From: Alloacidobacterium dinghuense
GTDB lineage: Bacteria > Acidobacteriota > Terriglobia > Terriglobales > Acidobacteriaceae
Direction of reading: 5' to 3'
NCBI RefSeq assembly: GCF_014274465.1
Contig: NZ_CP060394.1
Location: 2,418,001-2,482,000 of the forward strand
DNA length: 64,000 nucleotides
The notes beneath the pieces are model-generated. The model was not told the origin of the DNA, searched no databases, and saw only the letters and a program-made list of their open reading frames with translations. Below are positions 33,437-38,451 of this stretch, in pieces. The translations under genes and the position numbers were made by a program. Position 1 is the stretch's first letter; the number at the start of each line of letters is the position of its first letter.

Positions 33437-33916
33437 ATGATGCAACCTGACGACCTCCTCTCGCTCAAAGACGATATGATCGCCTTCATTGAAGGCCACG
33501 GAATGCGCCGCCTCCCCGGCTACGTTGGTGAAGACGTGCCCAGCATCATGTGGGAAGACGACGCCAACCCCGACAGCTGGAAAGACTTTGTCGAAACCGC
33601 CAAAGCCGCCGGTGCGCCCTTCGTCACCATGAGCGACGTCACCCTCGAAAAGGAAGACCTTGAACTGCTCCTCGAAGAGCTGCAGGATCTCGATTACCCC
33701 AATGAAGAAAGCGCCGACATCGAAGAGGCGCAGTCGCTCATTAACTACGTCGGCAAGCTCGGATACATCCAGCTCGGATTCATCCACCAGGGCGTCGCCT
33801 TCCTGCACGAATCCTCCACGCCATGGTACGAGCGCTACCAGCAGCTCCTCGAATCCGTTGACGACTTCAGCGATATCGTCTTTGAACAAAACGAGGGCGA
33901 CGACGAACAATCGTGA
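33437..33916 (+). CDS. Small acidic protein coupled to recJ
   Basis: 159 aa (start 33437 or 33440), very rich in Asp/Glu, no signal and no membrane segment. The C-terminus ends EQNEGDDEQS. Its stop overlaps the recJ GTG start (GTGA), so the two are translated together. Codon use is like recJ. I do not recognise the family. A partner or regulator of RecJ is a testable guess only. Confidence 0.75.
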   Translation: MMQPDDLLSLKDDMIAFIEGHGMRRLPGYVGEDVPSIMWEDDANPDSWKDFVETAKAAGAPFVTMSDVTLEKEDLELLLEELQDLDYPNEESADIEEAQSLINYVGKLGYIQLGFIHQGVAFLHESSTPWYERYQQLLESVDDFSDIVFEQNEGDDEQS

Positions 33917-35910
33917 GCGCAACCGTTGCCACCGGCCCAGCCGCCCGCAGACAGCCGACGCGCAAGCATTGGATTCACATTGACAACGGCTCCGACGCGA
34001 ACGCCATCCCCGCCGTCGAGCTATCGCGCGCCGCGAATCTCCCGCTCATCGTCGCCGAACTCCTGCTCGCGCGCGGCGTTCGCACCACTGAAGACGTAGA
34101 CCGCTTCCTCAACCCGCAACTCGCACACCTTCACGATCCCTACCTGATGAGCGGCATGCGCATAGCCGTCCCGCGCGTGCAGACAGCTATCCAGAACCAC
34201 GAGCCCATCCTCATCTACGGCGACTACGACGTAGACGGCACCACCGCCACCGTCTTACTCAAAACCGCCATCGAAATGCTCGGCGGCGAAGTTCGCTTCC
34301 ACGTCCCGCATCGCCTCAAAGAGGGCTACGGCATGCGTGACGAAATCCTTGAAACCGCCGCCACAGAAGGCGTCCGCCTCGTCATCAGCGTCGACACCGG
34401 CATCCGCGCCTTCGCCGCTGCGCGCGCCGCTAAAGCTCTCGGCCTCGACCTCATCGTCACCGACCACCATCTGCCCGAAATCGATCCCGTCTCCGGCACA
34501 AATGTTCCCCACGCGCTCGCAGTCCTGAATCCCAACCATCCCGACTGCACTTACCCCTGCAAGCATCTCTGCGGCGCGGGAGTCGCCTTCAAACTCGCGC
34601 AGGCTCTGCTCGAAACACACGACGCCGAACGAGCCCGCACAAAAATCCTGCCATCCTTCCTGAAGATTCTCGCCATCGCCACCGTAGCCGACGCCGTCCC
34701 GCTGCTCGGCGAAAACCGCGCCTTCGTCGCCCTGGGACTCGACGGCCTCCGCCGCCCCGTCAACGCCGGGCTGCGCGAGTTGATGAAAGCCGCGAATCTC
34801 GACCCATCGCAGCGAAAGCTAACTCCAGTAGACATTGCCTTCCGCCTCGCCCCACGCATCAACGCGGCCGGTCGCATGGACATCGCCTCCGACGTCGTCG
34901 AGCTCTTCACCACGCGCCAACCGCAACGCGCGCAGCAACTCGCCGAAAAGCTAGAGCGCCTCAACACAGACCGCCGCGAAACCGAAGCCGGCATCCTCAC
35001 GCAAATCGAAGAGCGCCTCAAAGACCCGGCATTCGAGCAAGCCCGCTGCATCGTCATGGACGGCGCAGGTTGGCACCGCGGCATCATCGGCATCCTCGCC
35101 TCGCGCATCGTCGACCAAACCGGCAAACCAGCCCTGGTCATCACGCACGAAGAAGACGTTTGTATTAACAACGGTGTCATCCTGAGCGGAGCTTCACAAA
35201 GTGAAGCCGAGTCGAAGGACCTGCTTCTAAGCGTCGATCAGCAAGAAAATGGGTGCCCCATCCTGACGAAGTCAGGGTGGGAAAGCAAGAACTCAAATGA
35301 GGCATCGAATCGAGCACTGAACGAAAGCCGAGTGGGAACAGCCCATGGCTCAGGCCGATCCATTCCAAACTTCCATCTCCTCAACGCCATAGAAACCTGC
35401 CACGACCTCTTCACCCGATACGGCGGACACGCCCACGCCGTTGGCTTCTCACTTCCATCCTCCGCCGTCCCCGAACTACGCCAGCGCCTCGAAACCTACG
35501 CCCTCGCCAACCTCACCGAAGAAGACTTAGGCAGCCCGCTCACCATCCATGCCAACCTGCCGCTCGATCGCATCACACCCGCGCTCTTCACCTGGCTGCG
35601 CCGCATGGAACCCTGCGGGATGGGCAACGAAGAGCCCATCTTCGCCGCGCAAAACGTCCGCGTAGCCTTACCGCCGCGCTTCATCCTGGATCGTCAAGGT
35701 AATGCCAAGCACGTCCGCCTGCAACTCGCGCAAGGCCCGCGCGCCATCACCTTCCCCGCCATCGGCTGGCACTGGGCCGAACGCATCCGCTCCATGAACA
35801 TCGAGCAAAACAGCATCCTTCACCTCGCCTACAAACTCCGCGAAAACGACCACCCCGAATTCGGCGGCCTCGAACTCGAAATCTGCGACATCGCACTAGC
35901 GCACGCCTAG
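33913..35910 (+). CDS. recJ: Single-strand DNA exonuclease RecJ with a repeat-derived insertion
   Basis: 5'-3' exonuclease in recombination and mismatch repair. 665 aa, about 90 longer than usual. DHH phosphoesterase motifs: YGDYDVDGTT (D103 region), VSVDTGI and TDHH (D184-H186). DHHA1 has GAGWHRGIIGILASR and GSGRSIP (about 479-485). Between VITHE and GSGRSIP, where a few residues are normal, about 57 residues (417-475) are encoded by a dispersed DNA repeat (35175-35288) plus flanks, in frame. The catalytic motifs are intact. Start is GTG, coupled to the upstream gene. Confidence 0.92.
   Translation: MSATVATGPAARRQPTRKHWIHIDNGSDANAIPAVELSRAANLPLIVAELLLARGVRTTEDVDRFLNPQLAHLHDPYLMSGMRIAVPRVQTAIQNHEPILIYGDYDVDGTTATVLLKTAIEMLGGEVRFHVPHRLKEGYGMRDEILETAATEGVRLVISVDTGIRAFAAARAAKALGLDLIVTDHHLPEIDPVSGTNVPHALAVLNPNHPDCTYPCKHLCGAGVAFKLAQALLETHDAERARTKILPSFLKILAIATVADAVPLLGENRAFVALGLDGLRRPVNAGLRELMKAANLDPSQRKLTPVDIAFRLAPRINAAGRMDIASDVVELFTTRQPQRAQQLAEKLERLNTDRRETEAGILTQIEERLKDPAFEQARCIVMDGAGWHRGIIGILASRIVDQTGKPALVITHEEDVCINNGVILSGASQSEAESKDLLLSVDQQENGCPILTKSGWESKNSNEASNRALNESRVGTAHGSGRSIPNFHLLNAIETCHDLFTRYGGHAHAVGFSLPSSAVPELRQRLETYALANLTEEDLGSPLTIHANLPLDRITPALFTWLRRMEPCGMGNEEPIFAAQNVRVALPPRFILDRQGNAKHVRLQLAQGPRAITFPAIGWHWAERIRSMNIEQNSILHLAYKLRENDHPEFGGLELEICDIALAHA
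35175..35288 (+). repeat. Dispersed repeat copy inside recJ
   Basis: Begins TGTCATCCTGAGCGGAGC, contains GTCGAAGGACCTGCTT and AATGGGTGCCCCATCCTGAC, and ends GTCAGGGTGGGAAAGCAA. The same blocks in the same order occur at 37802-37954. The end portion is a near-perfect inverted repeat (CCCATCCTGAC / GTCAGGGTGGG). Here it is translated as part of recJ. Confidence 0.85.
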
Positions 35911-35964
35911 AGAAGATTCCCGTAAAATAGCGCGAACACCTCAAGCAATCTACGGAAGACCCCG

Positions 35965-37764
35965 ATGAAGCTCCGGCCGCACCACCTCCCACTCCTTGCT
36001 CTTCTCATTGCAACCTGCTGCCAAGCCCAAACACAATCCGTTGAAGAGCGGCAATACTCCGTGACCATCACCCCGAGCGAACAACCCGGCGCACCCGCGC
36101 AAATCAAAATCGAACGCCAACACGAAACCGTCTTCCAGGTCCCGATCATCGCCGGCCTCGACTCAGCATCGAGCGAAGAGCAGCTCTCCAACATCACCTA
36201 CAACCTGCGCAAATCTGGCGAAGACACCTACACCCTCAACGCCACAGCCAAGAGCAATCTCTGGACAAGCCGCCGCTTCCAGTGGCGCTTCTTCCCCGAC
36301 CACATCGAGTTCCAGCAGTTCGCCACCGGCACGGGCAGACTCGGCCGCTGCTACTTCCTGGCCAATGGGGTTTCGAATCGCTGGGACAACGGCGCCACCG
36401 CCGGCCACGCATGGGACGCGACCATCTATGCCGACCGCTACTTCGCCCCCAACCCCAACCTCGCCGACCAGCTCGAATTCAACATCGCCATGCCGCAAAT
36501 CCTCGGCTTCAGCGTCGGCCGCGAAGAAAGCTCCGAGCAGGACTTCCGCCCCGAGCGCATGGCCGGAACCTTCGCGCCCCCGCCGCTCTTCCTCGCCTTC
36601 CACCTCAACAGCACTTGGATCGGCATCGGCATCGGCGCCAAACCCGGCGACTACCAGTTCCCCGCCCTCGAATACTCCGGTTCGCGCTACGCCGGAGCAT
36701 CCTTCTACGTCGACTACATGGGCTACCGCGCCATCGACGGCGACTTCGCATCGCCCGTCCTCACCATCAACATGGCCTGGAGCCCCCTCGACGCGCTCCG
36801 CAGCTACACCGCATGGCTCACGTCCAACGGATTTGCAACCGATACAGTTACAAAAGACGTCTACTGGCACCACGTGCCCATCTTCTGCGGATGGGCCGAG
36901 CAGACCGTCGAATCCGTCCCGCAAGGCGGCTCCGCCAATAAGCTCTCCACGCAGGCAAATTACGAAAAATGGCTCGCCACACTCGATGAGCGCGGCCTCC
37001 CCATCGGCACCGTCGTCATCGACGACAAGTGGCAGCAAGGCTACGGCAGCTTCGACGTCGACCAGCAGAAGTGGCCCGACATGAAAGGCTTCATCGCCGC
37101 GCAGCACGCCAAAGGACGCCACGTCCTCCTCTGGGTCCCCGTCGCCGACACCGACGGCCTCCCGCCATCACTCTGCGTCAACTACCAGGGCAAGTGCGTC
37201 ATCGCCGACGTCGGCAAGCCCGAATACGAAGCCTGGCTCCGTCCGCGCATCCGCCATCTCGTCCAGGACCTCGGCGTCGACGGCTTCAAAGAAGACTGGG
37301 TCCGCTCGCCCGCCGCGCCCGGCCTCCCGCTCACCGGCCCCGCCACCGGCATCGAATTCGTACGCCGCTTCCAGTCCATCCTCTACACCGAAACGCACAA
37401 GTGGAAGCCCGACGCCATGGTCGAAACGCAAACCACCAACGCACTCTTCCGCGAATCCTCCGACGTCATCCGCCTCAACGATGTCTGGTACGCCAGCCGC
37501 AACGTCCCCGACATGATGCGTCTCCGCGCCCGCATGGCCAACATCACCGGCTGGCCGCTCGTCGACACCGACAACGCCTCCTCCACCAACCTCAAAGAGT
37601 GGTGGAGCTACATGCAGGCGCAACCCTCCATCGGCATCCCCGCGCTCTACTTCGTGACCCGCACCGAAACCACGCAGGAAACTCCATCCGCGGCCGACTG
37701 GGCCTATCTCGCAGCACTATGGCGCCAATACATCGACGGACTGAAGGCGACACCGCAGCAGTAA
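35965..37764 (+). CDS. Exported glycoside hydrolase-like protein (GH31/GH36-like barrel)
   Basis: 599 aa with a signal peptide (to about CQAQ, residue 22). An N-terminal beta-sandwich (about 25-280) precedes a TIM-barrel region: TVVIDDKWQQGYGSF, then WPDMKGFIAAQHAKGRHVLLWVP and LGVDGFKEDWV, the layout of clan-D retaining alpha-glycosidases. D in VIDDKW and D in FKEDW are candidate catalytic or binding acids. Exact family and substrate are not assignable from sequence alone. It follows recJ by 54 bp and is probably a separate unit. Confidence 0.65.
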   Translation: MKLRPHHLPLLALLIATCCQAQTQSVEERQYSVTITPSEQPGAPAQIKIERQHETVFQVPIIAGLDSASSEEQLSNITYNLRKSGEDTYTLNATAKSNLWTSRRFQWRFFPDHIEFQQFATGTGRLGRCYFLANGVSNRWDNGATAGHAWDATIYADRYFAPNPNLADQLEFNIAMPQILGFSVGREESSEQDFRPERMAGTFAPPPLFLAFHLNSTWIGIGIGAKPGDYQFPALEYSGSRYAGASFYVDYMGYRAIDGDFASPVLTINMAWSPLDALRSYTAWLTSNGFATDTVTKDVYWHHVPIFCGWAEQTVESVPQGGSANKLSTQANYEKWLATLDERGLPIGTVVIDDKWQQGYGSFDVDQQKWPDMKGFIAAQHAKGRHVLLWVPVADTDGLPPSLCVNYQGKCVIADVGKPEYEAWLRPRIRHLVQDLGVDGFKEDWVRSPAAPGLPLTGPATGIEFVRRFQSILYTETHKWKPDAMVETQTTNALFRESSDVIRLNDVWYASRNVPDMMRLRARMANITGWPLVDTDNASSTNLKEWWSYMQAQPSIGIPALYFVTRTETTQETPSAADWAYLAALWRQYIDGLKATPQQ

Positions 37765-37801
37765 GCACCGTCACCAGTGGAGCGCCAATCCGCCCTCGCA
37801 C

Positions 37802-37954
37802 TGTCATCCTGAGCGGAGCGCGAATCGGGGTCCCCGGGCACGCGCGGTTTTCGCGTGCTGGGGTGGAGAAGCGCGTAGTCGAAGGACCTGCTTTTCGCAT
37901 CGGTCAGCACGAAAACGGGTGCCCCATCCTGACGAAGTCAGGGTGGGAAAGCAA
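37802..37954 (+). repeat. Dispersed repeat, intergenic copy
   Basis: Second copy of the recJ repeat: CTGTCATCCTGAGCGGAGC at the left, GTCGAAGGACCTGCTTTT in the middle and GGGTGCCCCATCCTGAC...GTCAGGGTGGGAAAGCAA at the right. An extra segment rich in GC (around 37826-37870) is absent from the recJ copy. Confidence 0.85.
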
Positions 37955-37976
37955 TACCTCGGCTCAACCATAAGGT

Positions 37977-38008
37977 TGTCATCCTGAGCAAAGTCAAAGA
38001 AGCTAGCT
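37977..38008 (+). repeat. Partial dispersed repeat
   Basis: GTTGTCATCCTGAGCAAAG and what follows match the left end of the family only, 22 bp after the full copy. The remainder of the 264-bp gap 37765-38028 shows no gene. Confidence 0.6.
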
Positions 38009-38028
38009 TGAACTCATATAACGAATGT

Positions 38029-38451
38029 TCAAGATGAGGCGACAGGATTGGCCAATCTTCTTGTAGATTTGCGACTGCCGTACTCAAGAAAAGCAAGGAT
38101 CCCAATCAAAGCCAACTTCGGGGCGAAGAATAGCAACAGAGGCATCGTTCCTGGCCACCCGACAGACAGATGATGAGTTGTTTCTACTAGCGCTGCTCCA
38201 AAGATGTAAGCAACAGTTAACGCGATGTTTGCAGGGACTCCGATCAGACCAACCCTCGGCCAGAAGAGAGACACAATAGCTAAGGGAATGTCGAGCCAAA
38301 ATGCAATAAACGTGAAGACTCTAACACCTAAACCTTCGTTGCCCGTAAACGTAAAAGTAAACCCACTGTAGATAGCCACTTGCCAAATGCAAAAAACAAA
38401 AGCAGCCACAGCATATATGGACCGTAAGAGTGTTTTCGACGACGGCTTCAT
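38029..38451 (-). CDS. Small polytopic membrane protein, unknown function
   Basis: 140 aa with four predicted membrane helices (about 10-30, 43-63, 68-90, 103-122). The C-terminus is short and basic (EYGSRKSTRRL). No conserved functional motif. More AT-rich than its neighbours. It lies beside the repeat cluster, so recent arrival is possible. Confidence 0.6.
   Translation of the reverse strand: MKPSSKTLLRSIYAVAAFVFCIWQVAIYSGFTFTFTGNEGLGVRVFTFIAFWLDIPLAIVSLFWPRVGLIGVPANIALTVAYIFGAALVETTHHLSVGWPGTMPLLLFFAPKLALIGILAFLEYGSRKSTRRLANPVASS

Follow-up and report, generated by a model that had tools for sequence, protein, structure and literature searches.

The recJ gene of the window (the whole stretch of 64,000 nucleotides analysed, positions 2418001-2482000 of a genome that forms one contig of 6,271,114 bases, 6.27 Mb) contains DNA that recurs outside genes farther downstream, which raises the question of how a dispersed repeat came to lie in frame within a repair nuclease and whether the encoded residues have been put to use. 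The sequence-only reading of this locus had proposed an insertion of about 57 residues that is either tolerated at an outer loop or changes RecJ activity. According to the analyses presented here, the most probable explanation (about 85%) is that a non-autonomous palindromic repeat was inserted in frame into recJ of an ancestor and is translated as a loop that does little harm, the sequence of which drifts. The features concerned are the following (window coordinates):

33913..35910, plus strand: recJ, single-strand-specific exonuclease (665 codons, GTG start)
about 35175..35303, plus strand: copy of the dispersed repeat lying in frame in recJ (a composite of module A, spacer, REP-like hairpin and 3' tail)
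35175..35226, plus strand: module A of the recJ copy (head TGTCATCCTGAGCGGA, variable palindrome, tail AGTCGAAGGACCTGCTT)
35191..35207, plus strand: inner palindrome of module A, GCTTCAC-AAA-GTGAAGC
35251..35281, plus strand: module C, the REP-like hairpin (GGGTGCCCCATCCTGAC-GAA-GTCAGGGTGGG)
35304..35337, plus strand: additional in-frame codons, no repeat recognised
37802..37960, plus strand: intergenic copy of the recJ repeat, with an extra GC-rich block within module A
37977..37994, plus strand: partial head of another module A copy (83% of 18 nt)

The repeat copy in recJ and the encoded protein

The phrases shared between 35175-35288 and 37802-37954 were present where they had been reported: TGTCATCCTGAGCGGAGC begins at both 35175 and 37802 (18/18), AGTCGAAGGACCTGCTT at 35210 and 37877 (17/17) and GGGTGCCCCATCCTGACGAAGTCAGGGTGGG at 35251 and 37917; positions 35231-35294 (64 nt) are 91% identical to 37897-37960, and the 25-nt hairpin with up to three mismatches was matched twice in the window and in none of 100 shuffles. 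The copy in recJ is thus real, but its proposed extent (35175-35288) was too short, the repeat reaching about 35303. Farther downstream, at 35304-35337, no other copy became visible when the genome was queried with 35160-35345, the matches other than the gene itself stopping by query base 147 (35306). The codons of module A, counted from 35176, read VILSGASQSEAESKDLL; a tryptic peptide within the insert, e.g. DLLLSVDQQENGCPILTK, is predicted. Regarding traits of MITEs, a check for terminal repeats restricted to pairs of at least 14 nt revealed no inverted pair at the ends of the recJ and intergenic copies.

The reading frame of recJ is free of stops between the GTG at 33913 and the terminal stop ending at 35910, and its product was assigned to TIGR00644 recJ by NCBIfam (492 bits versus a cut-off of 397). 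A search of the genome with this protein did not reveal a second full-length RecJ (the other matches were short and confined to the repeat part). The claim that the DHH/DHHA1 motifs are intact was confirmed: Pfam recognised the DHH, DHHA1 and RecJ_OB domains, both the DHH and GSGRS motifs are present, and the residues invariant in the alignment are retained (e.g. D104, D106, D108, D184, H185, H186, S480, R482, G504, G505 and H506). The DHHA1 match comprises profile positions 42-99 only (residues 474-529) and lies C-terminal of the extra stretch. In the AlphaFold2 model (24 aligned RecJs; mean pLDDT 84.2, pTM 0.84), residues 416-472 have pLDDT values below 50 and are positioned between two strands (407-413 and 476-482). 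The top eight matches of this model in a Foldseek search against the PDB were all titled RecJ (among the PDB matches, 8y30_A with E 2.5e-48 and 5f55_A, a structure with DNA, with E 6.9e-45). Judged from the model, the insert would form a disordered, floppy loop at a beta-hairpin turn of the DHHA1 domain, a few residues N-terminal of GSGRS; an effect of this loop on the substrate 5' end is conceivable.

Inheritance of the insertion, selection on RecJ and rival explanations

A metagenome-assembled genome of the same genus (bin_2, contig JAATFH010000524.1) encodes VITHEEEATILANAVILSGAQNAESKDLLLSIDQHEQGVPHPEPSEGWESRHSNRTAHGSGRS at the corresponding recJ site, and the DNA there is the repeat; Acidobacterium sp. 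S8 exhibits VITHELGDGGSAAQMTAHGSGRS and lacks it. Between the first strand and GSGRS, 68 residues are present in the window protein, 56 in bin_2 and 16 in S8. The best 30 loci from the 194 family genomes with a match (200 searched) included 27 RecJs of other genera, of which 24 have a loop of eight residues and the remaining three loops of 9, 11 and 20 residues. The large stop-free excess described before is thereby upheld, its size amounting to 60 residues (68 versus 8) instead of about 57. Window and bin_2 form the closest pair (dS 0.58, compared with 1.58 and 1.80 to S8), and their dS within the insert (0.63, calculated from only 23 synonymous sites) is similar to that outside; thus, a single insertion before the split of the two explains the data. 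Since bin_2 carries an orthologous, diverged insertion and S8 no repeat, the insertion was inherited and is not an assembly error. It was evidently present in the common ancestor of the window species and its sister species bin_2, as judged from species relationships that are based on few RecJ sequences; S8, with its 16-residue loop and no visible repeat, could formally have lost it. The S8 site is too diverged to display a target-site duplication. The intergenic copy at 37802 may be the donor of the recJ copy; synteny of the window with bin_2 and S8 stops at the end of recJ, and an intergenic copy was not found on the bin_2 contig, the gene neighbourhood of which differs there.

The comparison of window and bin_2 yielded an omega of 0.125 outside the insert, indicative of purifying selection, and of 0.54 inside. 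The insert differences (23.1 nonsynonymous and 9.9 synonymous) deviate in their ratio from those of the remaining RecJ (Fisher p = 1e-4, rounded counts), and pN and pS of the insert are indistinguishable from neutral at p = 0.14 with few sites, which fits drift. Between fixed anchors, the window sequence differs in length from that of bin_2 by -3, +6, 0, -1, -2 and +36 nt: The -1 affects the spacer that precedes the hairpin, the -2 the interior of the hairpin itself, the +36 falls into the repeat tail together with 35304-35337, and in place of the inner palindrome of module A bin_2 contains another, shorter sequence (GCAAAACGCG). As the -1 and -2 shifts compensate each other, the residues between them are re-read and the exit frame is restored; the window GCPILTKSGW aligns with GVPHPEPSEGW of bin_2, about ten codons being read in another frame. 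On this comparison, the gene appears to require the reading frame and not the insert peptide, in that the frame is kept and the sequence is not. The lack of stops alone proves little: It was dropped as proof of selection because 21% of the sequences simulated under neutrality, with a divergence of 31%, remained stop-free as well.

The rival explanations differ in what is asked of the insert. An assembly error at 35175-35288 or a decaying pseudogene has the proneness of repeats to misassembly as its sole argument and is virtually negligible in view of the separately assembled bin_2 contig with the same diverged insertion, the absence of stops, the purifying selection on recJ and the lack of a second full-length RecJ in the genome search. 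The other refutation named by the sequence-only reading did not come true either: the relative that shares the RecJ segment is related to the repeat in its DNA. If, instead, the insert had been co-opted, it would change how RecJ recognises the 5' end or its partner proteins, or would act as a docking segment. Its position a few residues ahead of GSGRS in DHHA1 and its maintenance since before the bin_2 split (dS about 0.6) would be in agreement with such a role, as would a Rickettsia guanylate kinase that carries a palindromic insert and has a changed substrate affinity (described in part of PMC2229807). However, the residues are barely constrained, about ten codons were shifted in frame relative to bin_2 and the loop is modelled as disordered, so that co-option is regarded as distinctly unlikely; the proposed change of RecJ activity is unsupported, and likewise a gain of RecJ function.

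A role of the repeat as nucleic acid, the hairpins slowing translation or stabilising or cutting the mRNA and thereby regulating the RecJ level, is even less probable and rated as very unlikely. Indeed, the window copy, folded as single-stranded DNA, surpasses 199 of its 200 shuffles (z -2.65), and the hairpins covary genome-wide; yet the orthologous bin_2 copy folds no better than its shuffles (z -0.12, 93/200 as good) and the intergenic copy reached a z of -1.68. Hence, folding does not seem to be conserved within recJ itself. A known RNA family was ruled out by the lack of an Rfam match (E <= 1) in 33900-38100.

The evidence is most consistent with the tolerated insertion: A non-autonomous repeat composed of module A and the REP-like hairpin entered recJ in the common ancestor of the window species and bin_2, with the orientation of the gene and without a stop in the reading frame, at the DHHA1 beta-hairpin turn just before GSGRS. 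Its translation would yield a disordered loop, about 60 residues long, which does not disturb the RecJ fold and motifs; the frame of the gene is under selection, the inserted sequence would drift nearly neutrally, and the insert would be retained because it does little harm. Of the two possibilities raised at first, tolerance at an outer loop is therefore the one favoured by the orthologous copy in bin_2, its absence in S8, the purifying selection and the disordered-loop model.

The repeat family, REP-associated transposases and known systems

The search for further copies extended the family far beyond the single neighbouring copy noted at first, to over a hundred of the hairpin module. The exact head TGTCATCCTGAGCG (14-mer) occurs 62 times genome-wide (0 for the reversed pattern) and the hairpin pattern GGGTGCCCCAN{8,38}TGGG 122 times (1 for the reversed pattern). 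Full copies are highly variable and follow the order GTCATCCTGAGCG(g/a)AGC, variable palindrome, GTCGAAGGA(C/T)CTGC, spacer, GGGTGCCCCA, stem and TGGGAAAGCA. The first 62 merged stretches (350 kb, picked for containing matches) comprised 103 elements: 41 consist of the head only, 31 of the hairpin only, 24 of head and hairpin, and 7 of other mixtures. The hairpin stem is maintained by compensating changes: In 79 distinct sequences of 110 copies, base pairs 5-10 are paired in 97.0% compared with 67.0% (maximum 73.8%) in 500 re-pairings of the arms among copies (pairs 1-4 were not counted since they are fixed by the pattern). At genome positions 1626047-1626374, four hairpin units are arranged in tandem with a spacing of about 84 bp.

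Two genes with a Y1 transposase match (PF01797) are present in the genome, and both products are REP-associated tyrosine transposases (RAYT) according to NCBIfam NF047646 (99 and 107 bits, cut-off 80). The RAYT gene scoring 99 bits (frame at 4649559-4650110) is located between inverted hairpins of the recJ-repeat family, at 4649512 (plus) and 4650058 (minus), and its reading frame extends into the downstream hairpin; the stem interiors of these hairpins are unlike that of the recJ copy, and the closest exact module A head is about 2.4 kb away. Given its inverted hairpin flanks, this RAYT may mobilise the repeat in trans, including the recJ copy. The second gene (2956191-2956499) has inverted flanks of a different palindrome (GGGGCTTTAGCCCC / GGCACGGCTTCAGCCGTGCC, by eye). 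A comparable arrangement, with inverted palindromes around a tyrosine transposase gene, characterises the REPtrons and TIRtrons described in parts of Di Nocera et al. 2013 (PMC3733652), where an acidobacterial group of REP-associated transposases is also reported.

As an observation of its own, a multi-copy gene family (MYNECRHIFTSGKKC..) gave 13 matches, of which two belong to a single locus; of 10 loci inspected, 8 have a same-strand REP-like hairpin upstream, six by the exact pattern at 132-305 bp and two, read by eye, interrupted by another repeat; the family (loci including 2836732, 901555, 4255476, 4691174, 6107081, 6195677, 3753861 and 273640) looks like a mobile or amplified unit.

BIMEs and REPINs are composites of palindromic modules with variable interiors, and the present elements resemble them, by description, in both respects. 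Such mosaics are named in a part of PMC6006769. Likeness to the REPs treated in parts of PMC3733652 consists in a short palindrome, more than 100 copies, a location mostly outside genes and inverted copies around a RAYT gene; the hairpin matches listed span 29-47 bp, some exceeding 40 bp, for a REP definition of 20-40 bp at high copy number. In contrast to those REPs, a second module (GTCATCCTGAGC..GTCGAAGGACC) frequently accompanies the hairpin here, and neither a GTAG or CGTC tag at the hairpin end nor the motif GGGGWSAS was seen by eye (the hairpin-pattern search itself fixes the GGGTGCCCCA end, but copies found by module A also start, by eye, with GGGTGCCCCA). REPs located in frame inside many ORFs, often of DNA synthesis or repair, are described in the same source, e.g. 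in uvrA, recBCD, dnaE2 and DNA ligase, where they encode 20-30 or up to 82 residues; in its sections 15 and 16, recJ and ribonucleotide reductase are not named. The Rickettsia palindromic elements (RPE; Ogata et al. 2000) of 105-150 bp are, according to parts of PMC2229807 and PMC10969869, likewise tolerated in frame in conserved genes, and one RPE-bearing enzyme that was tested was expressed and active with altered affinity (PMC2229807). Judged by description, they share with the present repeat the palindromic nature and the in-frame position in conserved genes (recJ, nrdJ) at sites lacking it in relatives, but belong to another lineage, and most copies examined here are found outside recognised genes.

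Full-text searches with the exact repeat letters gave matches for GGGTGCCCCA alone, unrelated by title; in the open-licence literature (chiefly titles and abstracts), nothing was found on REPs in frame in ribonucleotide reductase, nor any publication treating these repeats within acidobacteriaceal genes. Since in-frame REP and RPE insertions, DNA-repair genes included, are in print, the kind of event is known, and what is added is the repeat family, the lineage and the genes concerned: a clear new case of the known route by which a small selfish repeat lengthens a bacterial protein, and a phylogenetically placed in-frame insertion in the only RecJ found in a bacterium that is not a Rickettsia, with a repeat-free relative and a diverged orthologous copy.

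In-frame repeat pieces in other genes

The class II ribonucleotide reductase gene nrdJ (genome positions 4355525-4359046; NF005122, 1466 bits) is a second example and richer than recJ. In its DNA, in-frame repeat-derived pieces were seen at four linkers that vary between congeneric species:

Site 1 (within the catalytic domain): NNVVIPTGAQSAERRDLQ in this genome, HNVILSEATEGSAVEGPAAKLRPGSREART in S8, nothing in G002; the bin_2 contig ends short of the site
Site 2 (hairpin): GVPHPLQSKGWD in this genome, RVPHSERSEGWD in S8, RMPHSERSEGWD in bin_2, absent from G002
Site 3: VVIPTPSEERGRNPYD in this genome, shorter relatives in S8 and bin_2, a different repeat (DVILSEAERSGAQSKDL) in G002
Site 4: DVILSGAKDLHL in this genome, without a counterpart elsewhere in the genus

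The site 1 insert is absent in all 16 aligned reductases of other genera (14 of the same length, one longer by two residues and one with fewer). Together with recJ, these linker sites provide a natural series from insertion to drift for studying repeat effects on enzymes, which also bears on whether the mobilising enzyme or selection chooses frame and orientation. In a VWFA-family gene (TIGR03436; 1282012-1284726), two in-frame hairpins are positioned in the C-terminal linker, which is represented by a shorter version in S8 and is free of hairpins in G002; moreover, repeat-derived codons occur in the leader of this genome, S8 and G002, where the true start is uncertain.

The bulk of the copies examined lies outside recognised genes. 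In 529 kb of retrieved genome stretches, 8 of 139 GTCAT(C/T)C(C/T)GA heads and 10 of 112 hairpins fall into frames open for 80 codons on both sides, of which 4 and 5, respectively, are within the genes recognised in this census (recJ, nrdJ and the TIGR03436 VWFA protein; the 80-codon rule overlooks nrdJ site 4). Uncertain cases are a hypothetical protein with paralogues and a PadR regulator, the start of which is probably downstream of the repeat; long stop-free frames were dropped as evidence of genes where the scanned frames matched no family or the frames looked spurious by eye. Among 136 pattern matches in S8 (some overlapping), 1 of 30 examined is in a recognised gene, again nrdJ, and two more of the matches listed, outside those 30, are in the VWFA gene and its leader.

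The sites in recognised genes are suggestive of a frame and orientation bias, as read from their sequences. All five module A-like sites of the genus (recJ, nrdJ sites 1, 3 and 4, VWFA leader) are in sense direction and read GTC AT(C/T), and all seven hairpin sites (the VWFA leader contributing two, the hypothetical protein one) are in sense direction, six of them reading GTG CCC; the seventh, in recJ, exhibits this frame in bin_2 and not in the window. This would fit the view that the repeats are portable linker donors and that a mechanism or selection favours a single orientation and frame when they enter loops, especially those of DNA-metabolism proteins. However, the sites are few, several share one gene and are perhaps not independent, those in the VWFA leader and the hypothetical protein are uncertain as coding, the copies dropped for want of family support also read other frames, and the genes hit extend beyond DNA metabolism. 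Moreover, the module A frame is open in 14 of 28 full copies and four others in 14, 14, 12 and 7, so that the sixth frame, closed in 28/28, lets tolerance narrow the choice of frame. Preferred entry of this kind is accordingly considered unlikely.

The hairpin interiors differ between species. The type CTGAGC..GCGAAGG is found in 0 of 110 copies here (those of recJ and nrdJ included), in at least 13 of the S8 matches listed (by eye), at nrdJ site 2 of both S8 and bin_2, and in the recJ of bin_2; GAC..GTC interiors occur in 14 of 110 copies here, one of them in recJ, in none of the S8 matches listed and in one of bin_2 (L067; 175 kb covered). As a lead, these distributions hint that in-gene copies may change with the pool of their species, via gene conversion or hairpin-templated repair. 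The wider proposal, that in this genus new protein linkers recurrently derive from REP-type repeats with a bias in orientation and frame, above all in DNA-metabolism enzymes, and that in-gene hairpins are rewritten together with intergenic copies, is doubtful; if true, coding sequence would join the concerted evolution of a selfish repeat.

Finally, reductase linkers of two other genera also look repeat-derived (SVIPTGAEGGVEGSA in L202, ALPSEAERSEAQRPAQWKDLQF in L192), and a reductase-like fragment, 63-69% identical, is located at genome positions 522529-522869 in two adjoining frames.
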